This document shows, piece after piece, positions 39,087 through 62,397 of a DNA stretch of 64,000 nucleotides. The notes below the pieces were generated by a model. That model was given only the letters and a program-made list of their open reading frames with translations. It was not told the DNA's origin and did no database searches. This DNA is from Zobellia barbeyronii. GTDB taxonomy: Bacteria; Bacteroidota; Bacteroidia; Flavobacteriales; Flavobacteriaceae. The position numbers and the translations under genes are program-made. How positions within the stretch are numbered: the stretch's first letter is position 1; each line of letters begins with the position of its first letter. The DNA lies in NCBI RefSeq assembly GCF_018603515.1, contig NZ_JACATN010000004.1, forward strand, positions 558,001 through 622,000, written 5' to 3'.

Positions 39087-39129
39087 TAAAAGTAGAACCA
39101 ACACTATGGTGAAACTATGATAAATATCA
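39087..39129 (-). promoter_or_regulatory. FNR-type promoter of the usp gene
   Basis: The dyad TGATAAATATCA (39118-39129, centre 39123.5) is 29.5 bp from the first base of a minus-strand -7 element TACTTTTA (39094-39087, 7 of 8 with TAnnTTTG counting the free positions). The predicted leader is about 20 nt. The geometry is identical to the fnr, ccoI, ccoS and nos cytochrome promoters. Confidence 0.75.
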
Positions 39130-39148
39130 GTTTTTGAAAAGAGAAAGG

Positions 39149-39838
39149 TTAAAATCCATCAATCAAATCTAAAAGCTTACGCTCATCAGCAATACCAATT
39201 TTCTTTCCGGAAGTTTTAATAAATCCTTTTTTCTTGAATTCAGAAATAATCCTAATACAAGATTCAGTAGCCGTACCTACTACGTTAGAATAGTCTTCTC
39301 TAGATAAGGAAAGCGTCAAGAAACCATCTTCGTCCTCGCCATAATTCTTTCTAAGGTATAAAAAAGCTTCTGCCATTCTTTGTTTCACCGTCTTTTGAGA
39401 CATGTTCACAATAACGTCGTCTGCTTCTCTTAGGTCATGCGCCATATGACGTAAAACTTCAACAGCAAAATTAGGATTCGTATCTAGGGTATTAGAAATA
39501 ATTTCTTTTGGTATAAAACAAACCTCCATGTCACTTACTGCAATTGCACTTAAGTTGGTAGACTCTTCGGCAATTACGGCTCGTTGGCCCATAACCTCGC
39601 CTTTACTGGCCAATCTTACGATTTGGTTTTTACCATTCTCACTAAGTTTAGACAGTTTTGAGACACCATCTCTAACACAAAAAACGCCATCTAGCTTTTC
39701 ACCTTCTTTGAAGATAGCTTCGCCTTTTTTAAGTTTTTTAGAAATTTTGGAATCGGAGACCTTCTTCAATTCTTCCTTACTCATAGCTCGTAAAGAATTG
39801 AATTGCCTTATTATGCAATTTTCACACCTGCTGCTCAT
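39149..39838 (-). CDS. CRP/FNR family transcriptional regulator
   Basis: A 229-aa regulator: N-terminal cNMP-type sensor barrel (about 20-140), dimer helix, and C-terminal winged helix (REDYSNVVGTATESCIRIISEFKKKG). The recognition helix keeps the Glu and Arg of E. coli FNR/CRP (E-S-C-I-R against E-T-I-S-R), compatible with a TGA half-site. Cysteines lie at C5-x2-C8, C54 and C107, so an Fe-S cluster is possible but the spacing differs from E. coli FNR. Its own promoter shares a dyad with ccoI, and matching dyads precede cco, usp and nos. It is thus the likely oxygen-responsive controller of this island. Confidence 0.9.
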   Translation of the reverse strand: MSSRCENCIIRQFNSLRAMSKEELKKVSDSKISKKLKKGEAIFKEGEKLDGVFCVRDGVSKLSKLSENGKNQIVRLASKGEVMGQRAVIAEESTNLSAIAVSDMEVCFIPKEIISNTLDTNPNFAVEVLRHMAHDLREADDVIVNMSQKTVKQRMAEAFLYLRKNYGEDEDGFLTLSLSREDYSNVVGTATESCIRIISEFKKKGFIKTSGKKIGIADERKLLDLIDGF

Positions 39839-39863
39839 ATCCTATTATTTATACCTGACCGTA

Positions 39864-39937
39864 CAAAGGTACCGTTCCCTAATTATAATAAACCTGACAA
39901 TTGTCATATATTTAAACTCTAATATCCTGCACCTTTG
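39864..39937. promoter_or_regulatory. Symmetric bidirectional fnr/ccoI promoter with one central FNR dyad
   Basis: A perfect dyad TGACAATTGTCA (39895-39906, centre 39900.5). On the minus strand TACCTTTG (39871-39864) is the -7 element for the regulator gene; on the plus strand CACCTTTG (39930-39937) is that for ccoI. Each starts exactly 29.5 bp from the dyad centre. Predicted leaders are about 20 nt on both sides. Confidence 0.85.
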
Positions 39938-39960
39938 TGCAAGGTATAGCAAATGATTAA

Positions 39961-42357
39961 ATGAACTCTAACAATTGTTTTCATTGTGGTGATGACTGTG
40001 GCAAAAAAGCCATAGTTCTAGATGACAAAAATTTTTGTTGCAATGGTTGTAAAACCGTTTATGAAATTTTTTCCGGTAATGACCTTGATTACTACTACGA
40101 CATTCAGTCTGCTGCCGGCGCAACTCCAAAAACTCTTGATGGAAGATACGATTTTTTAGATTCAACGCCAATTGCCGAAAAATTAATAGAATTCAATGAC
40201 GGGGACTTACAGATTGTAAATCTTTATATACCCCATATTCACTGTAGCTCTTGCATATGGGTACTAGAAAATCTGAACAAGTTAAACCCATCTATTAAGA
40301 GTGGTCAAGTAGATTTTCCAAAGAAAACAGTACGTATTACTTACAGCAGTGCAGCCATTTCTTTAAAAGAAGTGGTTTTGCTACTGGCGAGAATAGGTTA
40401 TGAGCCTTATATATCCCTTGATGATTTTGACAATAAAAAGAAAAGTGTAGACCGCAGCCTAATTTACAAACTTGGCGTAGCTGGTTTTGCTTTTGGCAAT
40501 GTCATGTTCCTTTCGTTTCCAGATTATTTTGACCTCTCTACTAGCGATGCATCGGGGGGCGAGTTCTGGCTCAACAAATATGAACCAGTCTTTCATTGGC
40601 TTATGTTTCTGTTTTCATTGCCTGTAATTTTTTATGCCGGCAGAGATTATTTCATATCTGCCTATAAAGGACTTCGTAGTAAAATATTAAATATTGATGT
40701 GCCAATTGCTCTGGGGATTTTTGTGCTATTTGTACGTAGTACACTAGAAATTACTTTTGATTGGGGAAGTGGCTTTTTCGACTCCTTAACAGGATTGGTG
40801 TTCTTTTTGCTTTTAGGAAAGTTCTTTCAGCAAAAAACCTATTCCTTTCTTTCGTTTGAACGAGACTACAAATCATATTTCCCGATTGCCATAACTAGAA
40901 TATCAAAAGAAGGGAAAGAAGAAACTACACAAGTACACGATATAAAAAGAGGAGACCGTTTACTCATTAGAAATGAAGAATTGATTCCTGTTGATGGTAT
41001 TCTTATAAACGGACAAGCACGTATTGATTATAGTTTTGTTACAGGCGAATCCGAACCAGTAAAAAAAGAATCCGGAGAGAAAGTCTTTGCCGGCGGAAAA
41101 CAACTACAAGGTGCCATAGAAATGGAAGCCTTAAAATCGGTTTCACAGAGTTACCTTACCCAATTATGGGGAAACAGTATTTTTCAAGAAGACAAAGCCA
41201 GTAAGTTCCAAACCCTGACCGATAGTATTGGCCGGAGATTTACGATTGCCGTGCTCAGTATTGCTTTCTTATCGGCCGCATTTTGGCTTTATTATGACCC
41301 TAGCAAAGTCATGAACGTATTTACGGCAGTATTAATAATTGCCTGCCCCTGTGCCATTGCTTTAGCATCTCCCTTTACTTTGGGTAACATGTTACGCATT
41401 TTTGGGCGAAAGAAGTTTTACTTAAAGGACACCCGCACCATAGAACAACTTGCGCAAATAGACACCGCTATTTTTGACAAAACAGGTACCATTACCACAT
41501 CAAAAAAGAGTACTGCCACCTATGAAGGTATGCCCCTTACGGAAGCTGAAGCTTCTTTGCTAAAAAATACGCTACGTGGCTCTAACCACCCATTAAGTAG
41601 AACGCTTTACAGTCTTTTGTCCGAACAAAATATTATTACGCTAGACGAATACGAAGAACATATTGGCAAAGGTATAGAGGGGTCAAAAGATGACGAACAT
41701 ATAAAAGCCGGTTCAGCATCTTTTGTAGGTAATGACCAAGTCTCAGATGCACTTAACACATCGGTACATATTAGCAGTAACGACTCCTATAAGGGTAAGT
41801 ATATTTTTCATAATGAATACCGAGATGGCGTTTCCGAAGTATTTAAGGATATGTCCAAAAATTTTGACGTAGCCATTTTATCGGGAGACAACGAAGGAGA
41901 GAAGTCTCGCTTAGAAAAATTGTTACCCAAACTCACTCCGTTGTACTTCAATCAAAAACCACAGCATAAACTGGAGTTTATAAAGGCTTTACAAGAACAA
42001 GGCAAAAAGGTACTTATGGTGGGTGATGGTCTTAACGATGCCGGAGCTTTGGCGCAGGCAGAAGTGGGCATTGCCATATCTGAAAATATTAATGTGTTCT
42101 CGCCTGCTAGCGATGGTATTATGGACGCCTCTAAATTTCAACAGCTAAACAACTATATCCTGGCCTCTAAGAAAGCGATGAAGATTATAAAACTCAGTTT
42201 TCTGTTATCCTTGACTTACAACGTCATAGGTCTCTATTTTGCGGTTACCGGACAACTTGAACCTGTTATTGCTGCAATCTTAATGCCCTTGAGTTCTATA
42301 AGCGTGGTTGCCTTTGCTACCATCTCTACCAACTTCATAGGAAGAAATATTGACTAA
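39961..42357 (+). CDS. ccoI: Copper-translocating P1B-type ATPase for cbb3 oxidase assembly
   Basis: A 798-aa heavy-metal P-type ATPase. The N-terminus holds a cysteine-rich metal-binding region (C6, C9, C13, C26, C27, C30) typical of FixI/CcoI, then an HMA-like domain with C95-x2-C98. Eight membrane spans surround CPC (462-464); the phosphorylation site is DKTGT (D506), with TGES (361-364) and GDGLNDAGAL near 695. It moves copper out of the cytoplasm for the CuB centre of cbb3 oxidase. It lies directly upstream of the cco genes and under the symmetric FNR promoter. The ATG at 39961 agrees with the predicted transcription start. Confidence 0.93.
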   Translation: MNSNNCFHCGDDCGKKAIVLDDKNFCCNGCKTVYEIFSGNDLDYYYDIQSAAGATPKTLDGRYDFLDSTPIAEKLIEFNDGDLQIVNLYIPHIHCSSCIWVLENLNKLNPSIKSGQVDFPKKTVRITYSSAAISLKEVVLLLARIGYEPYISLDDFDNKKKSVDRSLIYKLGVAGFAFGNVMFLSFPDYFDLSTSDASGGEFWLNKYEPVFHWLMFLFSLPVIFYAGRDYFISAYKGLRSKILNIDVPIALGIFVLFVRSTLEITFDWGSGFFDSLTGLVFFLLLGKFFQQKTYSFLSFERDYKSYFPIAITRISKEGKEETTQVHDIKRGDRLLIRNEELIPVDGILINGQARIDYSFVTGESEPVKKESGEKVFAGGKQLQGAIEMEALKSVSQSYLTQLWGNSIFQEDKASKFQTLTDSIGRRFTIAVLSIAFLSAAFWLYYDPSKVMNVFTAVLIIACPCAIALASPFTLGNMLRIFGRKKFYLKDTRTIEQLAQIDTAIFDKTGTITTSKKSTATYEGMPLTEAEASLLKNTLRGSNHPLSRTLYSLLSEQNIITLDEYEEHIGKGIEGSKDDEHIKAGSASFVGNDQVSDALNTSVHISSNDSYKGKYIFHNEYRDGVSEVFKDMSKNFDVAILSGDNEGEKSRLEKLLPKLTPLYFNQKPQHKLEFIKALQEQGKKVLMVGDGLNDAGALAQAEVGIAISENINVFSPASDGIMDASKFQQLNNYILASKKAMKIIKLSFLLSLTYNVIGLYFAVTGQLEPVIAAILMPLSSISVVAFATISTNFIGRNID

Positions 42358-42470
42358 GTCTGTAAGACACTACGCTCAAGACCAAAAGTTAACAGTTAAA
42401 AAACGGATTCAGTACGTTTAAAAAGTTACGTTTGTAAAACCAACAACTCACTAATTACCTCTCAAGTAAA

Positions 42471-42938
42471 ATGCCAGCTTTCAGTCTCTCATCGATTTCA
42501 GCACATTTCAAAAAAATTTCCTTTTTACAAATCTCAATAGCTATTGTCTATCTCTGGTTTGGCGCACTTAAATTTTTTAATGATGTTAGTCCGGCCGAAG
42601 AATTGGCAAAAGAAACCATCACCTCACTCACTTTTGGTTTAATTCCTCCTAATATTTCTATTTTTATGCTTGCCGTTTTAGAGGTAGGTATTGGTATTTT
42701 TCTTTTATTCGACCTATTTAGAAAACAAACTATTATTGTAACTTTATTGCATATGGTCTGTACTTTTTCTTCCTTACTTCTCCTTAATGAAGCCTCTTTT
42801 ACCTACAGCCCTTTTGCACCAACCCTTCTAGGTCAGTACGTTATAAAAAATCTAATTATAATTGCCGCTTTAATTTCTATTTACCAGAACACAAAAAAGG
42901 CAGAAAAGACAGCATACAACAGCTCTTCCACAGATTAA
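42471..42938 (+). CDS. DoxX-like small membrane protein
   Basis: A 155-aa protein with four hydrophobic spans (about 20-36, 60-80, 86-103, 123-140). The FLQISIAIVYLWFGALKFF start and the LAVLEVGIGIFLLF span resemble DoxX/YkgB-type proteins. Function is unknown. It sits between ccoI and ccoS; a possible -7 element TACGTTTG lies at 42427-42434, so it may have its own promoter. Confidence 0.7.
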   Translation: MPAFSLSSISAHFKKISFLQISIAIVYLWFGALKFFNDVSPAEELAKETITSLTFGLIPPNISIFMLAVLEVGIGIFLLFDLFRKQTIIVTLLHMVCTFSSLLLLNEASFTYSPFAPTLLGQYVIKNLIIIAALISIYQNTKKAEKTAYNSSSTD

Positions 42939-43048
42939 AAAAATACAATTTTTAACTTTTTCCTGCTTAAAATAATAATAGCATATATATTTACACACCA
43001 GACGGTTGTGATAAAAAATTAAGAAAGTTTTAGATATTTATCAAAACC

Positions 43049-43091
43049 TGACAAAAGTCATATTAAATAGCAAGTACACACCGTAGTTTTA
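43049..43091 (+). promoter_or_regulatory. FNR-type promoter of the cco operon
   Basis: The dyad TGACAAAAGTCA (43049-43060, centre 43054.5) is 29.5 bp from the first base of TAGTTTTA (43084-43091), a 7-of-8 -7 element. The predicted start is about 14 nt before the ccoS ATG. The dyad outer half-sites are identical to those of the fnr/ccoI dyad. Confidence 0.78.
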
Positions 43092-43110
43092 CGGCATAAT
43101 TCAGGTAGGT

Positions 43111-43320
43111 ATGAGTGTCATTTTTGTATTATTGGCCATAAGTATTCTTATTGCGGTCATATTTTTTATCGCTTTCATCGTTTCGGTGAAAAGCGGTCAA
43201 TACGATGATTCGTATACTCCATCTGTACGCATGCTTTTTGACGACGAACTGGTTAAGACTAAAAAAACCAGCGCCAAAGAGTTTGAAAAAGAGAAAATCC
43301 AACTAAATAAACAAGTATAA
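43111..43320 (+). CDS. ccoS: cbb3-type oxidase assembly protein CcoS
   Basis: A 69-aa protein with one N-terminal transmembrane helix (about 2-24), then SGQYDDSYTPSVRMLFDDE, the CcoS signature. It is needed for heme b and copper insertion into CcoN. It ends 2 nt before ccoNO and is the first gene of the oxidase operon. Confidence 0.92.
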   Translation: MSVIFVLLAISILIAVIFFIAFIVSVKSGQYDDSYTPSVRMLFDDELVKTKKTSAKEFEKEKIQLNKQV

Positions 43321-43322
43321 TT

Positions 43323-45521
43323 ATGGAAGTACAGCAGTTTTATTACGATAACAAAATCGTGAAAAATTTCCTCTATGCAACCATGTTCTGGGGTATTGTG
43401 GGTATGTCTGTAGGCTTACTATTAGCCTTAATGTTCATGTTCCCCAACTTAACCGATGGAATATCATGGTTAAGTTTTGGTCGTTTACGCCCATTGCATA
43501 CCAATGCGGTGATTTTTGCATTTGTAGGAAATGCTATTTACGCAGGGGTTTACTACTCCACGCAACGTTTGCTAAAAGCGCGTATGTATAGCGATTTTCT
43601 TAGTAAGTTCAACTTTTGGGGTTGGCAGGCAATTATTGTCTCGGCAGCTATTACCCTTCCATTAGGGTATACCAGTACTAAAGAATATGCAGAGCTTGAA
43701 TGGCCTATAGATATAGCCATTGCTGTGGTTTGGGTTGCTTTTGGTGCCAACCTCATCGGCACCATGATAAAAAGGAGACAGCGTCACCTTTACGTTGCCA
43801 TCTGGTTTTACTTGGCTACTTTTGTTACGGTAGCAGTGCTTCACATCTTCAACAACTTGGAGCTTCCTGTTAGCGCATTAAAAAGTTACTCTATTTACGC
43901 TGGTGTTCAAGATGCATTAGTACAGTGGTGGTACGGGCACAATGCGGTTGCATTTTTCTTGACTACCCCGTTCTTGGGACTTATGTACTACTTTGTACCT
44001 AAAGCAGCAAACAGACCGGTTTATTCTTATAGACTATCTATAGTTCACTTCTGGTCTTTGATTTTTATTTATATCTGGGCTGGACCTCACCACTTGTTAT
44101 ACTCCGCTTTACCGGATTGGGCTCAAAACTTAGGTGTAGCATTTTCAATTATGCTTTTAGCTCCTTCTTGGGGTGGTATGATAAACGGACTTCTTACGTT
44201 ACGTGGTGCATGGGATAAAGTTCGTACAGACCCTGTTTTAAAATTTATGGTAGTTGCAATTACCGGTTACGGTATGGCAACTTTTGAAGGTCCTTTACTT
44301 TCGCTTAAGAACGTAAATGCTATTGCCCACTTTAGTGACTGGATTATTGCTCACGTACATGTAGGTGCTTTAGCCTGGAACGGTTTCTTAACATTTGGTA
44401 TGATTTATTGGTTGGTACCTAGAATGACCAAAAATAAATTGTTCTCTATAGGCTTGGCAAACTTCCATTTCTGGATCGGTACTTTAGGTATTATTCTGTA
44501 TACGTTACCAATGTACGTTGCTGGATTTACCCAAGCATTAATGTGGAAAGAATTTAACCCAGACGGTACATTGGTTTATGGTAACTTCTTAGAAACCGTA
44601 CACGAAATTATGCCTATGTACTGGATGCGTGCCATTGGTGGAAGCCTTTACATTGTTGGTGCCATGGTTATGATCTACAACGTAGTTCGTACCATACGTT
44701 CCGGTAGCACAATAGAAGATGAATTGGCAGAAGCTGCTGCTCTTACTCGTGTTTCAAAACACAGAACAGCTGGCGAAACTTTCCATACTTGGTTAGAGCG
44801 TAAGCCTATTCAATTGACCATCTTAGCTACTGTAGCTATATTAATTGGAGGTCTTATACAGATTGTACCAACCCTTTTGGTAAAATCTAACATACCTACC
44901 ATTTCTAGTGTTAAGCCTTATACTCCGTTAGAACTAGAAGGCCGTGACCTTTACATTCGTGAAGGTTGTGTTAGCTGTCACTCGCAAATGGTTCGTCCGT
45001 TTAGAAGTGAAGTAGAACGTTATGGTGAGTATGCCAAAGCTGGTGAATTCGTTTACGACCACCCATTCCTATGGGGAAGTAAGCGTACTGGACCAGATTT
45101 ACTTAGGGTTGGCGGAAAGTATTCTGACAACTGGCACTTGAACCACATGTATGACCCTCAGAGTACATCATCCGGTTCTATTATGCCTTCATATTCTTGG
45201 ATGGTACGTGACAAGCATGACCGTAGCAACATTAAGACAAAAATGGAAGCTATGGTAACCTTGGGAGTACCGTACACTGAAGAGGAGATTGCTAATGCCG
45301 ATGCTCTTATGGATGCTCAGGCTACAAAAATCGAGAAGAACTTATATTCAGATCCCGATTTTGCTAAAAACTATGAAGCTGACAAAACCTATGCCGCTGA
45401 AAATGGTGAAGAGTTCGTAGAAATGAGAGACCGAGAAATCGTATCCTTAATTTCATACCTACAACGTTTAGGTACGGATATCAAGATTAAAGAGACCGGC
45501 GAAATAATATCTGAAAAATAA
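43323..45521 (+). CDS. ccoNO: cbb3-type cytochrome c oxidase, fused subunits I and II
   Basis: A 732-aa fusion. The CcoN part (about 1-490) has 12 spans with H59 (low-spin heme), GHNAV near 206 (CuB His), PHH near 255-256 and HVH near 344-346 (CuB, heme b3 and low-spin heme ligands). After a further span (ILATVAILIGGLIQIVPTLLV) comes the CcoO part with heme c motif C549-V-S-C552-H553 in REGCVSCHSQMVRP and the distal region PSYSWM. It is the catalytic core of a high-affinity terminal oxidase. The fusion is the usual form in this phylum, but unlike Proteobacteria. Confidence 0.96.
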   Translation: MEVQQFYYDNKIVKNFLYATMFWGIVGMSVGLLLALMFMFPNLTDGISWLSFGRLRPLHTNAVIFAFVGNAIYAGVYYSTQRLLKARMYSDFLSKFNFWGWQAIIVSAAITLPLGYTSTKEYAELEWPIDIAIAVVWVAFGANLIGTMIKRRQRHLYVAIWFYLATFVTVAVLHIFNNLELPVSALKSYSIYAGVQDALVQWWYGHNAVAFFLTTPFLGLMYYFVPKAANRPVYSYRLSIVHFWSLIFIYIWAGPHHLLYSALPDWAQNLGVAFSIMLLAPSWGGMINGLLTLRGAWDKVRTDPVLKFMVVAITGYGMATFEGPLLSLKNVNAIAHFSDWIIAHVHVGALAWNGFLTFGMIYWLVPRMTKNKLFSIGLANFHFWIGTLGIILYTLPMYVAGFTQALMWKEFNPDGTLVYGNFLETVHEIMPMYWMRAIGGSLYIVGAMVMIYNVVRTIRSGSTIEDELAEAAALTRVSKHRTAGETFHTWLERKPIQLTILATVAILIGGLIQIVPTLLVKSNIPTISSVKPYTPLELEGRDLYIREGCVSCHSQMVRPFRSEVERYGEYAKAGEFVYDHPFLWGSKRTGPDLLRVGGKYSDNWHLNHMYDPQSTSSGSIMPSYSWMVRDKHDRSNIKTKMEAMVTLGVPYTEEEIANADALMDAQATKIEKNLYSDPDFAKNYEADKTYAAENGEEFVEMRDREIVSLISYLQRLGTDIKIKETGEIISEK

Positions 45522-45533
45522 AAAATAAATATC

Positions 45534-45725
45534 ATGTTCAAATTTGTAAAAGGTTACATGGAAACTATTGATGGCGTAGCAACCTACCCCATGATATCAC
45601 TACTTATCTTCTTTGTGTTTTTCATATTGTTATTCTGGTGGGTTTTTACTGCCTCAAAAACATACATAAAAGAAGTGAGCGAATTACCTTTTGAAGAAGA
45701 TAACCAACAAAACCTAGAACTATGA
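45534..45725 (+). CDS. ccoQ: CcoQ/FixQ-like small subunit
   Basis: A 63-aa protein with one transmembrane span (about 20-42, MISLLIFFVFFILLFWWVFTA) and a short acidic cytoplasmic tail (ELPFEEDN). Position between ccoNO and ccoP and size identify it as CcoQ, which stabilises the interaction of CcoP with the core. Its stop overlaps the start of ccoP by 4 nt. Confidence 0.87.
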   Translation: MFKFVKGYMETIDGVATYPMISLLIFFVFFILLFWWVFTASKTYIKEVSELPFEEDNQQNLEL

Positions 45726-46675
45726 AAAACACATCAACTTGGTGGTTCAAAATACCACTTGTTTTCTTTTTAATATTCGGCTTAACGGAGTTTGTTGTTG
45801 ATTCAGGAGACTTACCCGCGTTTATTAAATTCCCAATGGTGCAAGTATTCCTTGTATTCGTTCTATTCTTGCTTATCGTAATTGCGATAATTACAAGAGC
45901 CATAGAAAATGTAATGTATCAAACTCTTTCAAAAGAAGCGCAAGAGCGTTATCTAGCTGCAAAGAACAAATCTTTACATTGGAAATGGGGCGAAGAAACT
46001 TACCAAAGAATGCTTGGTTCTAAACCCATGGAAAAAGAAGGCGAGATTATTCTTGACCATGACTATGATGGTATTCGCGAGTTAGACAACAATCTACCGC
46101 CATGGTGGGTATACTTATTCTATGCCTCTATTGTGTTCGCTGTAGTTTACCTAGTTCGTTTTGAGATATATAATGATTATAACCAAGACCAAGAATACGA
46201 GCAAGAAGTAGCTGCCGCTCAATTAGAGATTGAAGAGTATAAAAAGACCGCAAAAGGCCTTGTTGATGCCAATACGGTAGAATTACTTACCGATGCGGGA
46301 GACCTTAAAGCTGGCCAGACCATTTTTGAAAGTAACTGTGTTGCCTGTCATATGGTAGATGGTGGCGGTGGTATTGGACCTAACCTTACAGACCAAAATT
46401 GGATTTTAGGTGGAGGCATCAAAAATGTTTTCCATACGATTTCTGAAGGTGGTCGTGATGGTAAAGGTATGATTGCTTGGAAACAGAGTTTAAAGCCTGC
46501 AGAAATTGCTCAGGTTGCTAGTTACGTCTTGAGTTTTCAAGGTACTACACCAGCCAATCCAAAAGCTCCGGACGGTGATCTTTGGTTAGACCCAGATGCA
46601 CCTGCCCAGGCAGTTCCTGCAATAGAATCTAGTACCGAACAGGAAGTAGATTCTACATCGGTTACTATGAACTGA
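45722..46675 (+). CDS. ccoP: cbb3-type oxidase subunit III, single-heme form
   Basis: A 317-aa membrane-bound cytochrome c. Two spans are at about 8-28 and 40-58, a third at 128-145; HDYDGIRELDNNLPPWW (113-129) is the CcoP N-terminal signature. Only one heme c site is present, C206-V-A-C209-H210, with M250 (GKGMIAW) as likely distal ligand. Proteobacterial CcoP has two hemes. The C-terminal tail (281-317) is low-complexity and acidic. It takes electrons from soluble cytochrome to CcoO. Confidence 0.92.
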   Translation: MKNTSTWWFKIPLVFFLIFGLTEFVVDSGDLPAFIKFPMVQVFLVFVLFLLIVIAIITRAIENVMYQTLSKEAQERYLAAKNKSLHWKWGEETYQRMLGSKPMEKEGEIILDHDYDGIRELDNNLPPWWVYLFYASIVFAVVYLVRFEIYNDYNQDQEYEQEVAAAQLEIEEYKKTAKGLVDANTVELLTDAGDLKAGQTIFESNCVACHMVDGGGGIGPNLTDQNWILGGGIKNVFHTISEGGRDGKGMIAWKQSLKPAEIAQVASYVLSFQGTTPANPKAPDGDLWLDPDAPAQAVPAIESSTEQEVDSTSVTMN

Positions 46676-46721
46676 ATTAAACGGGACATGTTTGCCCTGT
46701 TAGCTGATAAAGCATAATAAA

Positions 46722-48140: not shown

Positions 48141-48157
48141 TAATTAAGTAAAAGATC

Positions 48158-48604: not shown

Positions 48605-48611
48605 GAGAAAC

Positions 48612-51417: not shown

Positions 51418-51532
51418 ACCAATAATTGGCAAAACATGATATTGTTCATATTCTAAAGCTCCTCTATTATAGATATTTGCAGCACAAACCGAGCACTTCA
51501 AAAACTAATGCCAATAGTGTACTTTTGATACG

Positions 51533-52447: not shown

Positions 52448-52461
52448 AAAAATTTGAATAT

Positions 52462-52485
52462 AAATAGGACAATTTTATCCTATTT
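52462..52485 (+). promoter_or_regulatory. Second Rrf2-type operator, upstream of ric
   Basis: A perfect dyad AAATAGGA-N8-TCCTATTT lies 27 nt before the ric ATG, with the same arm length, spacer length and GGA/TCC inner bases as the rrf2 dyad. A full -7 element at the matching distance is not evident (only TATA at 52497). Confidence 0.7.
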
Positions 52486-52511
52486 AATAAAATAACTATA
52501 AAAAAGAAATT

Positions 52512-53231: not shown

Positions 53232-53297
53232 AGTGTAATTCGCACTTACTAAATCTGCTTATAAAAGTTCAATTATAAATTTCTAAAATTGATTCTC

Positions 53298-53642: not shown

Positions 53643-53674
53643 CATTCATCCATTATAAAACCTGAACTATATCT

Positions 53675-54001: not shown

Positions 54002-54005
54002 GTTT

Positions 54006-55229: not shown

Positions 55230-55244
55230 ATCATTGGCCCTAAA

Positions 55245-56027
55245 TTAAAAATCTTTTTTCTTGGATACGTATACCAATCGCCAAATAGGTAGAACAGTCC
55301 ATAAAATAAGCATCAACATAGAAACAAAAAGACCTTGATCCGTTCCAAAGAACTTTTTGAATACAGCACCAGTATAACCCAAAAGAGCAGAAATATCCAA
55401 TTTTAAAAGAATTAAGGTCCGTGACAAATCTATAGGATTAAACATGGTAGCGCTAAGGGAAAAAGCATCTAAAGGATACTCCTTAAAAATAATTAGAGAC
55501 ATCAGAAACAACCCATCATAAATAACTGCCATAAACAACCACAACAATACGGCATACCCAAAACCTTTAATCTTGTTTTCGTTAGACAGGGCTATATTAA
55601 AAGCCAATACGGTAAAAATTAAAGTTAGAAAAGCACCTGTAACCAGGAGTAATGAAAAGTCAAAAATAGCATCACTTTTGAATAGACCATAGAGCACAAA
55701 AGGAATTCCAAGACCTAACACTAAGCTTAATGTTAAAGAACCCGCTACACCCAAATATTGACCTAAGAAAATAGAGGACCGTTTAATGGGTTGCGCCAGT
55801 AGCAGTTCCGTAAACTCTTTTGAGTTGTAGAAATACATTATTCCAAAAATAGTACTGATCAACGGCACAAGAATAATTATAACATTCATAAGGGTTATAA
55901 TGGCCTTTGAAACATCATTGTTCAAAAACAACAATACAAAACCTAACAAGAGGTAAAATAGAAAGTATACGTAGCTCCAGCGGCTACGGATTAGGTCGTA
56001 AAAACTATATTTTAGTATCTTAAGCAT
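55245..56027 (-). CDS. nosY: ABC transporter permease NosY
   Basis: A 260-aa membrane protein with six spans: FLFYLLLGFVLLFLN, IIILVPLISTIFGIMYFY, then the EFTELLLAQPIKRSSIFLGQYLG coupling region, followed by four more. With NosF and NosD it forms the complex required for CuZ assembly in N2O reductase. It overlaps nosF by 8 nt. Confidence 0.9.
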   Translation of the reverse strand: MLKILKYSFYDLIRSRWSYVYFLFYLLLGFVLLFLNNDVSKAIITLMNVIIILVPLISTIFGIMYFYNSKEFTELLLAQPIKRSSIFLGQYLGVAGSLTLSLVLGLGIPFVLYGLFKSDAIFDFSLLLVTGAFLTLIFTVLAFNIALSNENKIKGFGYAVLLWLFMAVIYDGLFLMSLIIFKEYPLDAFSLSATMFNPIDLSRTLILLKLDISALLGYTGAVFKKFFGTDQGLFVSMLMLILWTVLPIWRLVYVSKKKDF

Positions 56028-56730
56028 GAGTGGGTGCTGTTGCTATGGCCGCTATGGCGTGTTCTAAATCCGTTTGTCCTGTCTTAGTTTTCAGTTCTCC
56101 TATACTACCTTTAAAGTAAATATTACCTTCTAACAAGTAGACGATTACATCAGAAATTTCTGCAACAAACTGCATAATATGAGATGTGATCAACACCGTT
56201 TTCTTTAGGTCTCTTTGTTCTCTGATAAGATTTTTTAAATGAATTAAAGATGCTGGATCAAGACCTGTTGTTGGTTCATCTAGAATTAACAAAGGACTAT
56301 CGAACATAAACGCCAAAACAATGTTTACCTTTTGTTTGGTGCCTCCTGAAAGGGTTGAAAGTTTCTTATCTAAAAAAGGTTCTAGTTTAAAAAGCTCAAT
56401 CAATCTTTCTTCATCACTTGGGCTTTGCCTAAGATCCTTTATCATCCGGATAAGCTCGTAAACTTTTAAGTTTCCGGGGAAATTAGCTATCTGAGGTAGG
56501 TAGTCTATTTCTTTACGGTACTTCCAATTCTTTTTAATGGGTTCTCCCATCACAGAAATGCTTCCCTTATCCGGCACGACCATACCCAAAATACTCTTGA
56601 TCAAAGTAGTTTTTCCCGAACCATTAGGTCCTAAGATGGCAAAAACGCCACCTTTCTCTATGGTAAGGTTTAAGCCCGAAAGTACTTCGTTCTTTCCAAA
56701 TTTCTTCTGTAAACCTTCTATCTGAATCAT
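56020..56730 (-). CDS. nosF: ABC transporter ATP-binding protein NosF
   Basis: A 236-aa ABC ATPase: Walker A GPNGSGKTT (near 34-42), Q-loop YLPQIANFPGNL, signature LSGGTKQKVNIVLAF, Walker B LLILDEPTTGLDP, and the H-loop in ITSHIM. It energises NosDFY. Start and stop overlap nosD (4 nt) and nosY (8 nt), so the three are translationally coupled. Confidence 0.93.
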   Translation of the reverse strand: MIQIEGLQKKFGKNEVLSGLNLTIEKGGVFAILGPNGSGKTTLIKSILGMVVPDKGSISVMGEPIKKNWKYRKEIDYLPQIANFPGNLKVYELIRMIKDLRQSPSDEERLIELFKLEPFLDKKLSTLSGGTKQKVNIVLAFMFDSPLLILDEPTTGLDPASLIHLKNLIREQRDLKKTVLITSHIMQFVAEISDVIVYLLEGNIYFKGSIGELKTKTGQTDLEHAIAAIATAPTHA

Positions 56731-57968
56731 TGTACTTTGGTCATTAGGGGATTAATATCCAATAAATTGTCTGGTGTAAATACGGGAGAAACTTTTTCGG
56801 AAAAATCAATGATATCCATAAAAAGACTTCGCAATAAAACAATAGCCTCCGGTGTTTTGTTTACGATATAAGAAAACAATTTTACGGGGCGGTACGGCAC
56901 ATCGCCAATACCGTTCTTATCTAAATCGTAACCAGTATAACCACTCCAGTAATTACCATCAAACACATTATCGTTCAGCTTACTGTCATACGATATATCA
57001 AAACTGTTGTAAAGGAAATTATTACCCGTAAAAGCATTGGCGTAACAGGCTCCAAGAACTTTAATTCCCCACCCATTATTTATAAAATTGTTTCCTTTAT
57101 AATTAATTCGGTTAGACCCTTCTATGTTAATGCCAATTGTATTTTCCTCAAAGGTATTGTTACTTATTTCTGCATCATTAATTTCTTTCAACAATACACC
57201 AAAAGAAGCTGTTCCCCAGTTTTTCCTAAAGGTATTGCCCTTCATTATAATTCCTTTGGAAAACATAACTGCAACTCCGGCTCCGTTATTTTCAAAAAGA
57301 TTATTGGTGTAAACGTCATCATCAGAAAACATAAAATGTAAACCATATCTTAAGTTATTTGTGCTTTTGTTATTGTCTATTGTAATGTTATCCGAGAACT
57401 CCAAATAAATACCATCTCTTGCGCCTTGAACAATATTATTACTTACCTCAACATGGTGTGAATACCAAAGTTGGATTCCATTTCCGGAATTATACTCGTC
57501 CTTGGCATCGCCTATAATCTTATTGTGATAGACTTTTCCATAATTCGATTTTTCTAGATAAATCCCGAAAAACAATTTTTCTAAAACTACATTCTGAATT
57601 AGAAAATTTTCGCTTTTTACTACTCTAATGGCAGCATAATCTGTGGTATAGCTAGTGCCCACATTAATGATGAAAAAACCATCTATTGTTACACCATCCG
57701 ATACGATCCGCATGATTTCACCTTTCTTTTCTCCATCTATTATTGGGTAACCTTCCCCAATTAAGGTTAGTGGTTTATCAACAAGAATATTGAATTCCTT
57801 ATAGGTGCCCTTTTTAACTATTAGGGTGTCAAAATCTATGGCTCGGTCAATTCCCTCAGAAATAGATTTTATTTCGCAACTCTCACAGATAACTATAGGT
57901 TTGGCCCATAGGTGCGCGGTAACAAAAAGTAAAAAAGTAAAATTTAATAAACTTTGGTATCGCATCAT
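56727..57968 (-). CDS. nosD: Periplasmic copper-processing protein NosD
   Basis: A 413-aa protein with a Sec signal peptide (1-22) and a right-handed beta-helix built of CASH repeats. Recurrent NNxF/ISNNTF units run from about 100 to 330 (NNLFENNGAGVAVMFSKG, ISNNTFEENTIGINIEGS), ending with FDGNYWSGYTGYDLDKNGIGDVPYRP, the NosD signature. It works with NosFY in assembly of the tetranuclear copper site. A structured element (58029-58070) lies upstream. Confidence 0.93.
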   Translation of the reverse strand: MMRYQSLLNFTFLLFVTAHLWAKPIVICESCEIKSISEGIDRAIDFDTLIVKKGTYKEFNILVDKPLTLIGEGYPIIDGEKKGEIMRIVSDGVTIDGFFIINVGTSYTTDYAAIRVVKSENFLIQNVVLEKLFFGIYLEKSNYGKVYHNKIIGDAKDEYNSGNGIQLWYSHHVEVSNNIVQGARDGIYLEFSDNITIDNNKSTNNLRYGLHFMFSDDDVYTNNLFENNGAGVAVMFSKGIIMKGNTFRKNWGTASFGVLLKEINDAEISNNTFEENTIGINIEGSNRINYKGNNFINNGWGIKVLGACYANAFTGNNFLYNSFDISYDSKLNDNVFDGNYWSGYTGYDLDKNGIGDVPYRPVKLFSYIVNKTPEAIVLLRSLFMDIIDFSEKVSPVFTPDNLLDINPLMTKVQ

Positions 57969-58028
57969 CTTAATATGAGAAATTTAGAATTCTCGTTTGT
58001 TCTTTTCCTAGATCAGTTTTTCCATAAC

Positions 58029-58070
58029 AAGACCACCAAGGATTACTCTTGGATAAATGCAGCTGGTCTT
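58029..58070 (-). promoter_or_regulatory. Possible structured leader upstream of nosD
   Basis: On the minus strand AAGACCA, an 11-nt bulge, CCAAG, a 7-nt loop, CTTGG and directly TGGTCTT form coaxial stems of 7 and 5 bp with a one-sided bulge. It lies in the 147-nt gap between the PNPOx-like gene and nosD. No T-run follows, so it is not a plain terminator. Confidence 0.4.
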
Positions 58071-58115
58071 ACACTGCTTTTCAATACTTTTCTTTGATTT
58101 AAAATCCTAGGTTGT

Positions 58116-58577
58116 TTACTCTCTATATTTACCTACGATATCAGAAATGTGAATACGATAAACAATTGGACTTGCTTCCTTTTCCATTTTACTGGAAAAA
58201 TCTCTTATAAATTCAAGTTTCTCCCCTTTCGTTCTAAAAATGGTCTCCTTAACTCCTTCTGTAAAGGTACGTAGGCATTTTTTTGCCGTACTACCCTTTA
58301 GTTCTTCAAAAGTGCCATTAACCAATACAGAACGCCATGTAAACATAGAGGCAACGTCCTCTACTTGTAAGGATACATGCCCGTATGTTCTCATAGATAC
58401 TATTTTATGACCTGGAGCAGAATAACTAATTATGCTTTTATTCTCCTCATCAAAGAAGTATGTTACTGGTACAATAAATGGGCTTCTACCCCCTATATAC
58501 GCCAAATGACCCACATAATTATCACTTAAAAGCGACATACATTCTGAAATTTCCAAGTCTTTTACCATAGTTTCCAA
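58116..58577 (-). CDS. Pyridoxamine 5'-phosphate oxidase-family (flavin/heme split-barrel) protein
   Basis: A 153-aa split-barrel protein. SECMSLLSDNYVGHLAYIGGRSPFIVPVTYFFDEENKSIISYSAPGHKI is the typical N-terminal FMN-type barrel; SLQVEDVASMFTWRSVLVNGTFEEL follows. It may bind FMN, F420 or heme. It is 4 nt downstream of nosL and hence in the nos transcript, which is unusual enough to suggest a link with NO/N2O metabolism. No direct evidence of reaction. Confidence 0.8.
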   Translation of the reverse strand: METMVKDLEISECMSLLSDNYVGHLAYIGGRSPFIVPVTYFFDEENKSIISYSAPGHKIVSMRTYGHVSLQVEDVASMFTWRSVLVNGTFEELKGSTAKKCLRTFTEGVKETIFRTKGEKLEFIRDFSSKMEKEASPIVYRIHISDIVGKYRE

Positions 58578-58581
58578 AGAT

Positions 58582-59028
58582 TTAAAAAGGATTATCTTTT
58601 TCGAATTTTTCCTCTAATTCGGTCCACGTATACAATGTTCCAGAATTACTCACCTGCGCTCTATTTGCTTCATCTTCATTTGCAAAAGCAGTTAAAAACG
58701 CACCCATTGGACTAGGAATATTCTCGCTGATCAAATAAGTTGCTGTTGTTGCATCAACAAAAACCCCTGGATCAGTATAATTATTTACACGATACATTGC
58801 AACCGTTTCCGGTTCTACATCACGCAGGTAATTTATCATACATTCAGTTGCATCAAAAGCATAACTTCTCCCTTTTTTAGTCATAAACTGTGCAGCATGT
58901 TGCTTATCTACAATGGTCATACTACAAAAATGGCATCCTTCCGAACCATATTCTATGGGTTTTGGCTCACGGTTACATGAAGACAATACCAGAATACATA
59001 TTACTCCAAAAATTGTTAGACTCTTCAT
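58582..59028 (-). CDS. nosL: Copper-chaperone lipoprotein NosL
   Basis: A 148-aa outer/inner-membrane lipoprotein (lipobox LSSC18). GCHFCSMTIVDKQHAAQFMTKKGRSYAFDATECMINYL is the NosL signature with Cys, Met and His that hold Cu(I). It delivers copper to NosZ. The gene overlaps the upstream membrane-protein gene by 4 nt. Confidence 0.93.
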   Translation of the reverse strand: MKSLTIFGVICILVLSSCNREPKPIEYGSEGCHFCSMTIVDKQHAAQFMTKKGRSYAFDATECMINYLRDVEPETVAMYRVNNYTDPGVFVDATTATYLISENIPSPMGAFLTAFANEDEANRAQVSNSGTLYTWTELEEKFEKDNPF

Positions 59029-59669
59029 GATGTAGCTAATTTATGAGTTTGATGAGATGAGTGAGAACCGGTACTTTTCCAGCCTACTATAAAAGCAACT
59101 ACTGTAAGTGCCATTCCAACGAACATTAACCATGCACCCGTAGCCGGTATTGAACTTACATCAAAATTCAATAATTTTTTATAACCAAAAAGTGGTGGTT
59201 TATAGGTCATTGGTGTCCCATCTTCATTAATCACCTTAATTATGGCATGTGGATCTAGGTTAGAACCGTAGTCCGTTAACCAGAGATTAAAATCATACAT
59301 ACCCATGATACCTAAGATAGACATTAGTAAGAACCAACCCAAAAAATATCGGTAATCAATTTTACCTATATACCCTAAAATACCTAATAGCACTCCTAAA
59401 AGTACCATACCAATGATTACGATAGGAAAAACATTAAACTCCCACATCTCATCAGCTTTAGGAATGGTCTTCATACCTATGTAGTGGTTAAGACCGTCTA
59501 TATTTTGTAAATCGAATTCAGAAACGCCTTGTATGCCCGTAATATGAATATTCATACCCAACGGATCTGGGTATTGCGGAGCTCCTAACATTATATTCCA
59601 AAGCGGAAATGCAAACAACCCTAATAAACATAAAGAACCGACTATCATTATTATACTTGCCCTTTTCAT
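59025..59669 (-). CDS. Conserved membrane protein of clade II nos clusters
   Basis: A 214-aa protein with four spans (about 5-25, 82-101, 109-127, 180-200). Extracytoplasmic segments carry IQGVSEFDLQNIDGLNHYIGMKTIP and a C-terminal His-rich tail (SHSSHQTHK). I know similar genes only from Bacteroidota nos loci, always beside nosZ/nosL. The histidine tail and the conserved 'NHYIGMK' suggest metal or quinol contact, but function is not established. It starts 52 nt after a strong hairpin that follows nosZ. Confidence 0.75.
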   Translation of the reverse strand: MKRASIIMIVGSLCLLGLFAFPLWNIMLGAPQYPDPLGMNIHITGIQGVSEFDLQNIDGLNHYIGMKTIPKADEMWEFNVFPIVIIGMVLLGVLLGILGYIGKIDYRYFLGWFLLMSILGIMGMYDFNLWLTDYGSNLDPHAIIKVINEDGTPMTYKPPLFGYKKLLNFDVSSIPATGAWLMFVGMALTVVAFIVGWKSTGSHSSHQTHKLATS

Positions 59670-59720
59670 CTTACATCATCTTAAAAAATTAAATCCATCA
59701 ATCATCTTGGCTTTCAAATA

Positions 59721-59757
59721 AAAAAGCAGGTCGGTCTTGGTACGCGACCTGCTTTTT
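59721..59757 (-). terminator. Strong terminator (attenuator) between nosZ and downstream nos genes
   Basis: AAAAAGCAGGTCG, an 11-nt loop and CGACCTGCTTTTT form a perfect 13-bp stem, 32 nt after the nosZ stop. Downstream nos genes need read-through or another promoter. Confidence 0.88.
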
Positions 59758-59788
59758 GTTTGAATAATTAAACTACTTTCCGCTGAAC

Positions 59789-61750
59789 TTACTCACCCAA
59801 AGACCAAGAAAGGTCAATATTGGATTTAGCAGGCGAAACTCTTATGTAACCTTGCATCTCTTGGTGCAAAGCAGAACAGAAATCTGTACAGTAAAATGGC
59901 CATACACCTTCTTTTTTAGGCTCCCAAACCGATGTTTTGGTTTGTCCTGGCATTATTAGTAAACCAGAATTCTTTTGTCCGATCATCATAAAGCCATGCG
60001 GTACATCAAAATCTTGTTCATGGTTTGTAATATGGAAGTACACCTTATCACCAACTTTAACACCCTCTATATTATCTGGAGTAAAGTGACTACGTATCAT
60101 TGCCATATAGACATGTACTTCATTACCATCACGAACTACTCTTGCATCTGAAACATTTTTTGTTGCAAATGGATGTTCGTTTTCTGCCAGTTTATAAATT
60201 TTCTGCGATTTAGGTGCTAGTATAGATGCTGGAATAGCTGCTGCGTAATGTGGCTCACCATGTGTTGGGAAATCATAAATAAGCTCCATTTTATCTCCAG
60301 AAATATCATATAACTGTGCAGAGTGTTCTAACTCAGGACCAGTTGGCAGGTATCTATCTTTGGTAATCTTGTTCATGGATACCAGATATTTACCAAAAGG
60401 TTTTCTAGAGTTTCCACCAGGAATCATACAGTGGCCAACAGAATAAAAAGTTGGTTTTCTATCAATAACCTCCCATGTACCTACTTTCCATTTAACAACT
60501 TCCGAAGAAATAAAGAACGTGGTATACGCATTACCCTTACCATCAAACTCGGTATGCAATGGACCTAATCCTCCACTTTTTACTTGACCAGCCAACACGT
60601 CTTCGAATTTTAGAATAGGAAGACCATAAGCTTCACCATCATACTTTTTACCGTCAATTGCTGCAATCATTTTATCAAACGAGAATACCGTAAGATCTGC
60701 AGAAAGCTTTCCGTTTCCAACAATATAATCTCCTGTTGGATTTACATCTACCCCGTGTGGAGATTTTGGTGTTGGCATAAAGAATACAGCACCAGGTACT
60801 TTTGTAGGATCTACAGTAAGTACTTCTTTTTTCATGGTTGAAGTAGCACTATGTGTCTCATCGCTATACACGTTATGTGTATAATTTGCAGGTACCATTG
60901 TACCTCCTCCATTTTCTACATACTCTTCAATTTTCTTCCAGTTTACAGCTGCAATAAAATCTTTATCATTTTGAGAAGCGTTAACCTCTAGAAGCGAATT
61001 AGCTTCCTCTGTGTTATACGTAGTAAAGAAAAACCATCCGTGAGATTTACCTCTACCAGGGTGTGATAAATCATAATTAAAACCAGGCATGATCAACTGG
61101 AATTTTATATCCATTCTACCAGTTTCAGGTTCTACACTTATAAAAGACAAGGCACCTTTAAAGTTTCCTTTGTAGTCTTTTATAGGCATATCTCTCTGTG
61201 GAATTGGAACTGAAAAACGAGTTCCTGCCACTACGTACTCTGAATTCTCTGTGATGTATGATGAACTGTGATTACCTGCACTATTTGGAACTTCTATAAT
61301 CTCAGCAGTTTCAAATGTTTTTAGGTCAATTCTTGCTATACGTGGTGTGTTGTTACCATTTATGAATAGCCATCTACCATCTAATTCTCCATTAGTCTGA
61401 GAAATATCTGGGTGGTGAGAATCATCTGCAGGCACAAAACCAAAAGAAGTTTCTAACATAGGTTTTGTTTCTTCTGAATACCCATATCCATTAGTTGGGA
61501 ATTGAGAAAAAACAGGAATCTCTTTGAACATACGTCCTGAAGGAAGACCATAAACGGCTACGTTACCGCTATATCCACCAGACATAAAGGCGTAAAATTC
61601 ATCGTGCTCGCCAGGAGCTACATATACTTTCTCTGCATTATTGGAAGCAAGCGCTCCATTTGATGAATCGTTGCCGTTTTGATTACCGCAACCTGAAAGA
61701 AACAGGACCGATCCTAGAACTGCTACTAGGTATAATGAATACTTTTTCAT
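59789..61750 (-). CDS. nosZ: Nitrous oxide reductase, clade II (Sec-type)
   Basis: A 653-aa periplasmic multicopper enzyme reducing N2O to N2. It has a Sec lipoprotein-type leader (LSGC21) with no twin arginine, the hallmark of clade II. The seven-bladed propeller carries CuZ His ligands (DDSHHPD, GNHSSS, SHGW, SPHGVDV, GPLHTEF, GEPHYAA). The cupredoxin end binds CuA: C621-TDF-C625-SAL-H629-QE-M632, with VPHGF upstream. Length is normal. It is flanked upstream by a cytochrome c that may be its electron donor. Confidence 0.96.
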   Translation of the reverse strand: MKKYSLYLVAVLGSVLFLSGCGNQNGNDSSNGALASNNAEKVYVAPGEHDEFYAFMSGGYSGNVAVYGLPSGRMFKEIPVFSQFPTNGYGYSEETKPMLETSFGFVPADDSHHPDISQTNGELDGRWLFINGNNTPRIARIDLKTFETAEIIEVPNSAGNHSSSYITENSEYVVAGTRFSVPIPQRDMPIKDYKGNFKGALSFISVEPETGRMDIKFQLIMPGFNYDLSHPGRGKSHGWFFFTTYNTEEANSLLEVNASQNDKDFIAAVNWKKIEEYVENGGGTMVPANYTHNVYSDETHSATSTMKKEVLTVDPTKVPGAVFFMPTPKSPHGVDVNPTGDYIVGNGKLSADLTVFSFDKMIAAIDGKKYDGEAYGLPILKFEDVLAGQVKSGGLGPLHTEFDGKGNAYTTFFISSEVVKWKVGTWEVIDRKPTFYSVGHCMIPGGNSRKPFGKYLVSMNKITKDRYLPTGPELEHSAQLYDISGDKMELIYDFPTHGEPHYAAAIPASILAPKSQKIYKLAENEHPFATKNVSDARVVRDGNEVHVYMAMIRSHFTPDNIEGVKVGDKVYFHITNHEQDFDVPHGFMMIGQKNSGLLIMPGQTKTSVWEPKKEGVWPFYCTDFCSALHQEMQGYIRVSPAKSNIDLSWSLGE

Positions 61751-61775
61751 TTGTATTGTATTTGTGGTTATTTTA

Positions 61776-61797
61776 TTAAAGCCCCCAAGGGCTTTAA
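61776..61797 (-). terminator. Hairpin between cytochrome c gene and nosZ
   Basis: TTAAAGCCC, loop CCAA and GGGCTTTAA (7 to 9 bp). On the minus strand it is followed by AT-rich sequence but only a short T-run. It could attenuate, end or stabilise the 3' end of the cytochrome transcript. Confidence 0.5.
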
Positions 61798-61811
61798 ATC
61801 TTATTTATATA

Positions 61812-62324
61812 CTATTCTAATGTTCTAAAATATTCGAGTATACTACGAGCTTGATCTTCGTTCAACCCTTGGTTAGCCATTGGAGCACCATTAAATTCTG
61901 CCATAAGCTCTTTTGCCAAAGCATCTTCTTTAACCATAACTTCAGGATTAAGAATCATGTTCATTACCCATTCTGGGCTACGTCTTTTTAAAACACCCGT
62001 TGGAGCTGGGCCAATGAATTTTTTATCCACTCTGTGGCAAGCCATACACATTTGGCTGTATACCTCTTCACCTTTTTTTGCCAAAGCTTGATCAATGTCT
62101 GGGGACAAAGTCACCGATTTTATTGGGCCTACTCCTTTATTTTCTAGGTCCACACGTTCAGATGGTGAAACTGTACTAGTAGCTGCAACTGCTTCTACTG
62201 GTTTCTCAGTTTTAGTTTTTTCACGATCTACGCTAAATCCTTCTTTCTTTTTTTCTTCTTTACCCCCACAGGCCATAAGTAAGAGTGAAAAAAATATCAC
62301 GGTACTTCTTATTACAATCTTCAT
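61812..62324 (-). CDS. Lipoprotein cytochrome c linked to nosZ
   Basis: A 170-aa lipoprotein cytochrome with one heme site CMACH (in YSQMCMACHRVDKKFIGPAPTG), and M/NPEVMVKEDALAKELMAEFNGAPMANQ providing the distal Met. I choose the ATG at 62324, where MKIVIRSTVIFFSLLLMACG begins with a good lipobox; the longer frame starting at 62408 runs through the promoter and FNR dyad. The low-complexity linker (KTEKPVEAVAA) tethers the heme domain. It is the first gene of the nos unit and the likely electron donor to NosZ. Confidence 0.88.
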   Translation of the reverse strand: MKIVIRSTVIFFSLLLMACGGKEEKKKEGFSVDREKTKTEKPVEAVAATSTVSPSERVDLENKGVGPIKSVTLSPDIDQALAKKGEEVYSQMCMACHRVDKKFIGPAPTGVLKRRSPEWVMNMILNPEVMVKEDALAKELMAEFNGAPMANQGLNEDQARSILEYFRTLE

Positions 62325-62354
62325 TTTAAGTAGTTTATAGATTAATTTATTGAG

Positions 62355-62397
62355 CAAATGTATGGGGAATGAATAATCAAAAACATGATATATATCA
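62355..62397 (-). promoter_or_regulatory. FNR-type promoter of the nos cytochrome/nosZ unit
   Basis: The dyad TGATATATATCA (62386-62397, centre 62391.5) is 29.5 bp from the first base of a perfect minus-strand -7 element TACATTTG (62362-62355). The predicted leader to the ATG at 62324 is about 25 nt. It matches the geometry of the fnr, ccoI, ccoS and usp promoters. Confidence 0.82.

Follow-up and report, generated by a model that had tools for sequence, protein, structure and literature searches.

The regulators of the FNR family carry an E...R recognition helix for TGA/TCA and have their dyad near -41.5, both of which have likely counterparts in the system described here; a dyad centred near -41.5 is the class II arrangement of CRP and FNR, and FNR-type class II control of the cbb3 oxidase is already a known kind of regulation. 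The subject of this report is a 64-kb stretch of contig C32 of the Zobellia barbeyronii genome (the window; the genome is 4.98 Mb), in which the promoters of five genes, encoding a universal stress protein (usp), a CRP/FNR regulator (fnr), a copper pump (ccoI), the protein ahead of the cbb3 oxidase (ccoS) and a cytochrome c of the nos cluster, share a TGAY-N4-RTCA dyad at one exact distance from a -7 element. The window's Fnr is like FNR of E. coli and A. fischeri in its CRP/FNR fold and in an alignable CxxC and central cysteine, but departs from them in having Asn or Ser in place of the third N-terminal cysteine and an additional, invariant Cys54. Compared with the FNR box TTGAT-N4-ATCAA, the core TGAY-N4-RTCA is kept, whereas the outer base is T (usp, ccoI, ccoS) where the FNR box has A; the -10 box of the E. 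coli and A. fischeri FNR promoters is replaced by the Bacteroidota -7 box.

Other described systems are alike in part. In the rhizobial hFixL-FxkR-FixK and FnrN system, as far as the accessible part of its description goes, a kinase pathway and an Fnr likewise converge on one type of box and so turn on a cbb3 oxidase (PMC7888657); here, by contrast, the receiver and the CRP/FNR output are fused in one protein (the receiver-CRP fusion), whose gene lies directly behind that of the kinase. NmpRSTU of Myxococcus xanthus also controls, through a kinase, a regulon with the cbb3 oxidase, its P-type ATPase and HemN, but does so by an NtrC-like regulator on enhancer sites and not by a class II dyad; the available part of the source has the words 'universal stress' 12 times, with no gene link established there (PMC11841059). 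HcpR of Bacteroides and Porphyromonas is likewise a CRP/FNR regulator in Bacteroidota, but its predicted regulon consists of hcp genes only, and the accessible part of its description gives no fixed class II geometry (PMC1274295). Among the titles and abstract beginnings listed by searches of the open literature (subscription papers and supplements apart), none deals with this geometry, an Fnr regulon or a receiver-CRP fusion in Flavobacteriaceae; the Bacteroidota -7 setting, the cysteine pattern and the fusion are variants without a description found in that literature.

All four dyads lie where the preliminary description had placed them. A script that counted the bases from the end of the dyad to the start of the -7 element gave a spacing of 23 in all five promoters, which puts the dyad centre 29.5 bp from the first base of the element; the fixed distance first proposed thus stands, while the N24 spacer given with it is one base too long and the -7 form TAnnTTTR does not extend to ccoI, whose element lacks the first T. 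The usp gene (38157-39059, minus strand, 300 amino acids; Pfam PF00582, 6e-21) has the dyad TGATATTTATCA at 39118-39129, from which the promoter reads left, and the -7 element TACTTTTA at 39087-39094, with a predicted +1 at about 39082. There are five promoters for four dyads because one dyad, TGACAATTGTCA at 39895-39906, is common to the divergent promoters of fnr and ccoI and is flanked in both directions by a -7 element at 23: on the minus strand TACCTTTG (39864-39871; predicted +1 about 39859) precedes fnr (39149-39838, 229 amino acids), and on the plus strand CACCTTTG (39930-39937; predicted +1 about 39942) precedes the gene for a ccoI-type copper P-type ATPase (39961-42357, 798 amino acids, by Pfam). 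Also on the plus strand, the dyad TGACAAAAGTCA (43049-43060) and the -7 element TAGTTTTA (43084-43091; predicted +1 about 43096) stand before ccoS (FixS; 43111-43320, 69 amino acids; Pfam FixS, NCBIfam TIGR00847), the first gene ahead of the cbb3 oxidase genes. The nos-cluster cytochrome c gene (61812-62324, minus strand; Pfam PF00034, run on 61812-62339) has the dyad TGATATATATCA at 62386-62397 and the -7 element TACATTTG at 62355-62362 (predicted +1 about 62350); its longest open reading frame starts at 62408, upstream of the dyad, and so spans its own promoter, and the true start is probably the Met at 62324. Downstream of it on the same strand lies nosZ (59789-61750; NCBIfam TIGR04246, 7.7e-284), encoding a Sec-dependent N2O reductase.

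The agreement among five promoters was proposed to exceed chance, and shuffles, reversed patterns and other spacings, all far lower, bear this out. The window holds eight such dyads, or 16 when oriented, around which elements of the form [TC]AnnTTT[AG] occur at a spacing of 23 in five cases, 32 in two and 0 in one; 300 dinucleotide shuffles of the window gave at most two pairs at any one spacing from 0 to 40, a number reached by two shuffles only. The dyads alone are unremarkable (eight against 3.5 expected, with at least eight in 5 of 100 shuffles). Across the genome the fixed-spacing pattern has 44 sites at 23 and its reverse none; when the gap may take any value from 8 to 38, the matches number 92, the 48 others being spread over 30 spacings (about 1.6 each), and the reversed pattern gives 37 over all 31 spacings. 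The site set is thus much larger than the window, and some of the 44 are probably chance matches, such as C35:95294 within an open reading frame of 736 amino acids. Outside contig C31, which is taken up below, sites precede genes for a hemN-like radical SAM protein, a di-haem cytochrome peroxidase, universal stress proteins, a TonB-like protein and a weak S30AE match; one precedes a small protein and then a nap-like molybdopterin oxidoreductase, and several have no clear gene behind them. At C32:275683-276120 two same-strand sites with identical dyads stand 395 bases apart, again with no clear gene behind. A degenerate scan of the window (up to two mismatches) gave eight matches against 6.5 expected, which is chance level, so none of the three weak sites beyond the known five is claimed; one of these, at 51437, stands before a small gene (51533) for which Pfam gives no match.

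Conservation of the spacing in orthologous promoters, on which the preliminary description had let its proposal depend, is found for usp, ccoS, ccoI, fnr and the nos cytochrome. In 80 loci with the closest fnr relatives (from Maribacter, Zobellia, Muricauda/Flagellimonas/Allomuricauda, Muriicola, Croceitalea and others), which are related to one another and so are not independent cases, a site at 23 precedes usp in 77 of the 78 loci that have the gene (the remaining one has a single mismatch), ccoS in all 72 that have it, ccoI in 66 of 78 and fnr in 57 of 80. At the remaining 12 ccoI promoters the dyad is followed, with unchanged spacing, by an element that begins with A or G; the elements of the 66 begin with C and none begins with T, so the deviation of this element is itself conserved. 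The ccoI -7 box (39930-39937 in the window) is consistently off-consensus, as though a weak promoter were maintained. The 80 loci together contain 584 oriented dyads, with 284 elements at 23 and no more than 31 at any of the other spacings; for seven control patterns, five with permuted dyads and two with changed inner gaps, the figures are at most one at 23 and at most 14 anywhere. The spacer is kept in length and free in sequence, its central 17 positions carrying 0.00-0.18 bits each in the 284 sites, and TCA is followed by T in every usp, ccoI and ccoS site that was counted and mostly by G on the fnr side. Two sets of 30 family loci, each including the window's genome and chosen as best-scoring among 102 genomes with a match for the nos cytochrome and 114 for the hemN-like gene, have the site at 23 in 29 (the window's own included) and 28 loci, respectively; the three misses are one mismatch off with unchanged spacing, and twenty other spacings together yield three matches for the nos cytochrome and one for the hemN-like gene.

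In 149 Flavobacteriaceae genomes the strict form TGAYAWWTRTCA at 23 has 812 sites, distributed over 126 genomes, against four for the reversed control. At the level of the class, 68 of 197 genomes match at 23, 62 of them among the 190 outside the family (102 sites), and the reversed control gives four matches in all 197. The family survey supports the conclusion that site occurrence tracks the presence of Fnr (called at an E-value of 1e-50) or of the receiver-CRP fusion (1e-40): strict sites are found in 123 of 127 genomes with either regulator and in 3 of 22 with neither (Fisher's test, 2.6e-17), and the mean number per genome is 9.3 with both (n=43), 4.5 with Fnr only (n=53), 5.4 with the fusion only (n=31) and 0.3 with neither (n=22). 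Where the fusion occurs without a detected Fnr, 29 of 31 genomes have sites.

The Bacteroidota promoter, with its -7 box TAnnTTTG, differs from the textbook promoter, and to our knowledge the contact of Bacteroidota activators with polymerase is little studied. According to the accessible part of PMC9723704, the -7 box of F. psychrophilum spans -12 to -5, and limiting oxygen raises its cbb3 oxidase and haem enzymes; if the box is placed alike here, the dyad centre falls at -41.5. The position near -41.5 given in the preliminary description is therefore exact as to the distance from the -7 box and borrowed from another species as to +1; the same arithmetic predicts leaders of 15-26 bases. From the computed sites, their spacing, their conservation and their association with regulator genes, we infer where transcription starts, that the dyads are bound, that binding activates, that oxygen is the signal and which regulator serves which sites. 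The promoters are likely to be of class II, dependent on an activator, and to belong to a respiration regulon read by Fnr and by the receiver-CRP fusion. A CRP/FNR-type dimer on TGAY-N4-RTCA at -41.5 would adjoin RNA polymerase on the -7 box TAnnTTTG and would replace the -33 contact, leaving 17 spacer bases free in sequence within a fixed length. Two related regulators, Fnr as a probable iron-sulphur protein and the fusion as the presumed output of a PAS histidine kinase, would read this one geometry.

The window's Fnr has a cNMP-binding fold and a CRP-type helix-turn-helix (HTH) domain (Pfam cNMP_binding and HTH_Crp_2), the recognition helix TATESCIR and four cysteines, Cys5, Cys8, Cys54 and Cys107. 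Its best solved relatives by sequence are 2gau, a CRP/FNR protein, and then A. fischeri FNR, in alignment with which the CxxC and the central Cys107 match and the third N-terminal cysteine is replaced. The classical set of CxxCx5C plus a central cysteine is absent from all 101 sequences compared (81 near, the window's included, and 20 distant, down to 39% identity), all of which keep the four cysteines named and have Asn (97 sequences) or Ser (4) at the third position; in NCBIfam the window's Fnr scores best with NF008365, a subfamily model, but reaches 104 where the cut-off is 228. The lost cluster ligand may have been replaced by Cys54, and Fnr is probably an iron-sulphur oxygen sensor with Cys5, Cys8, Cys107 and perhaps Cys54 as ligands. 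In the accessible part of the literature, a CRP/FNR protein of a Flavobacteriales genome is assigned to carbon sensing (MalR; PMC8510549), and the question of the cysteines is not settled by the available part of PMC12937710.

The receiver-CRP fusion of the same genome is encoded on contig C31 (369675-370739) and combines, in about 350 amino acids, a receiver, a cNMP-binding and a Crp-HTH domain, with a recognition helix, TATETAIR, that resembles that of Fnr. The start of its gene is overlapped by the gene for a histidine kinase of 1092 amino acids with several PAS domains and one GAF domain (within C31:369675-373995), ahead of which a site is present. The fusion would in effect be FixJ and FixK merged: one fused protein stands in place of a separate FixJ (LuxR-type) and FixK, and no separate FixJ or FxkR was seen. 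Since the fusion has a similar helix, occurs in 74 of the 149 family genomes and is accompanied by sites in nearly all genomes without Fnr, Fnr is not the sole candidate regulator. The earlier proposal that Fnr drives the oxidase, the copper pump, the stress protein and N2O reductase together accordingly keeps its common, conserved geometry and shares its regulator with a second candidate.

Among the 92 fusion copies listed, 12 form a close group with that of the window's genome (at least 54% identity) and 80 lie outside it; the kinase gene is directly upstream in all 34 loci inspected, comprising 26 of these 80 and eight of the close group. In the 26 distant loci it encodes a PAS kinase every time, with the proximal His of FixL in 26 and the distal Arg in 23, and in the eight close ones a large kinase. 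The FixL-type His/Arg motif occurs also in PAS domains of unknown ligand. A site at 23 lies within 400 bases after the fusion gene in 23 of the 26 distant loci, and fnr is in the same stretch in seven; the fnr and fusion genes are at most 5 kb apart in 9 of the 43 genomes that have both. Six fusion loci were read closely. In the four picked for closeness to fnr, kinase and fusion stand between ccoI and usp-fnr; in the other two they stand beside Usp genes, in one case also beside a hemN-like gene.

The sites of the window's genome come in two half-site flavours. Outside C31 the inner bases are AA or AT in 26 of 38 half-sites; in the C31 sites, together with a pair on C22 grouped with them by its sequence, they are TT or CT in 33 of 50 (30 of 46 without the C22 pair). 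After these two classes and the fusion emerged, a single regulator for all sites was dropped. The C22 pair (C22:862089-862272) consists of two divergent sites beside Usp-like and small unknown genes. On C31, a block of five sites covers about 213-226 kb and a block of 17 about 319-378 kb, with one site between them amid sulfatase-like genes (23 in all), which rules out one continuous island of 165 kb; the genes behind the sites in the blocks encode Usp, Dps-like, PEP (phosphoenolpyruvate) synthase-like, FtsH-like, oleate hydratase-like and chloride-channel-like proteins and a second ATP synthase. By the look of these genes the blocks resemble a dormancy or fermentation region. Two further shared dyads on C31 (221072-221145 and 368629-368702) have a -7 element at 23 on both sides and form symmetric divergent promoters like that of fnr and ccoI.

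A pattern built from C31-type sites, TGAYYTARRTCA at 23, averages 3.9 sites per genome in the 12 close-fusion genomes and 0.5 in the other 137; without the window's genome it has 38 sites in the remaining 11. Of its 47 sites in the close-fusion genomes, 36 lie at most 40 kb from the fusion gene, in 11 of the 12 genomes. The stretches read in eight close-fusion genomes hold 69 sites, with CT or TT in 75 of 138 half-sites, a tally that leans towards this flavour since the stretches were picked to hold the fusion gene and C31-flavour sites; the genes behind these sites have matches in the C31 region and encode a 256-amino-acid protein (in six genomes), a YtxH-like protein (five), the kinase itself (four), Usp (three) and the second ATP synthase (two). 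Because C31-type sites cluster near the fusion and before matching genes, the fusion is probably at the head of a separate regulon, in which it also controls the gene of its kinase. The respiratory genes of the window's genome (cco, ccoI, hemN-like, nap-like, nos cytochrome, cytochrome peroxidase and usp) would fall to Fnr, and the Usp, Dps-like, second ATP synthase, PEP synthase-like and FtsH-like genes to the fusion, through TGAYYT half-sites. A fuller proposal has a condensed FixL-(FixJ+FixK) relay and a four-cysteine Fnr with a rearranged cluster site share one unvarying class II geometry around the Bacteroidota -7 box, with a TGAYAA respiratory regulon and a TGAYYT regulon of dormancy-like stress and fermentation genes, and with a LOV light sensor added in some lineages to the kinase of the latter; we hold it tentatively, at a little short of even confidence.

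Several observations weigh against class II control by these two regulators. The flavours overlap, since 28 of the 138 half-sites in the eight other genomes are AT or AA, and 23 of the 80 fnr promoters are without the full site (15 have the dyad without an element at 23, eight have no dyad). In the 149 genomes the strict form at the ten spacings from 13 to 22 together has 196 matches against 72 for the reversed control, some of them beside fnr genes, so other arrangements may exist. Four of the 127 regulator-bearing genomes have no site, and three with neither regulator have sites, one of them (G121) five and two a single one. G121 perhaps has a diverged regulator. Genome size also confounds the regulator test, as 13 of the 22 genomes with neither regulator are at most 2.2 Mb; among those of at least 3 Mb, seven of eight are without any site, the eighth being G121. 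Two further points concern the kinase of the window's genome, which keeps the FixL His but has Glu at the FixL Arg, and which carries at residue 428 the motif NCRFLQ, which we take to be a LOV-type signature.

These last features bear on whether something other than oxygen, such as nitric oxide, light or another redox cue, serves as the signal, an explanation that we regard as unlikely, though deserving of serious consideration. The PAS stretch at about residues 379-513 of this kinase matches LOV photoreceptors and FixL chimaeras among solved structures, and the LOV-type motif occurs in five of nine close-group kinases (that of the window's genome and those of four of eight relatives) and in one of 26 others. 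With Glu at the FixL Arg and this motif, the kinase signal in the group of the window's genome may be light; light may thus act on the close-fusion kinases, alone or together with oxygen. The deviation of Fnr from the known cysteine pattern, and the presence in the window of nosZ, of a RIC di-iron repair protein and of an Rrf2 regulator (both by Pfam/NCBIfam), would likewise suit a signal other than oxygen. However, the targets centre on the cbb3 oxidase and the hemN-like gene, and, of the 18 solved relatives of one kinase from the wider group, the 13 that match best are the haem oxygen sensors DosP and FixL.

The remaining point against the two-regulator reading is a third CRP/FNR paralogue, at C11:770342, with an FNR-like cysteine group; the dyad could be used by this or another CRP/FNR protein, with the window's Fnr a bystander. 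The paralogue has a CxxC-x4-C group and an E...R recognition helix, with the third N-terminal cysteine present and Phe in place of Cys54 (read from the letters), and the genome holds six matches to Fnr at an E-value of 0.01, Fnr itself included, not all of them regulators. Yet site numbers follow Fnr and the fusion over the 149 genomes, and the fnr promoter itself commonly has the site in the related loci (57 of 80), which leaves a bystander Fnr improbable.

Repression, in which the site is an operator and a dimer at -41.5 blocks RNA polymerase, has equally little to recommend it. Such a dimer would overlap the -33 region; but a strict length with a free spacer sequence suits contact between activator and polymerase better than occlusion, which tolerates shifts. 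The -33 region has TTG in only 21% of the 284 sites and TTT in 69%, figures for these sites alone, without a reference set of ordinary promoters. The consistently off-consensus -7 box of ccoI also speaks for activation, as does the induction of the cbb3 oxidase at low oxygen in F. psychrophilum (PMC9723704, accessible part). Chance or bias in reading, which could appeal to there being only four dyads and to -7 elements picked by eye, is already refuted and can be set aside, because the shuffles never exceeded two pairs per spacing and the same spacing is enriched genome-wide and family-wide.

That most relatives searched have this one spacing before genes of respiration and stress points to a single common switch, probably for low oxygen. 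With hundreds of promoters sharing a geometry exact to the base, a probable low-oxygen regulon of a large environmental group of bacteria can be mapped in directly testable form and easily predicted in other flavobacterial genomes; here the probable regulon takes in a Sec-dependent N2O reductase. If the proposed role of the receiver-CRP fusion is true, it shows that a cascade of the FixLJ-FixK kind can shrink to two proteins.

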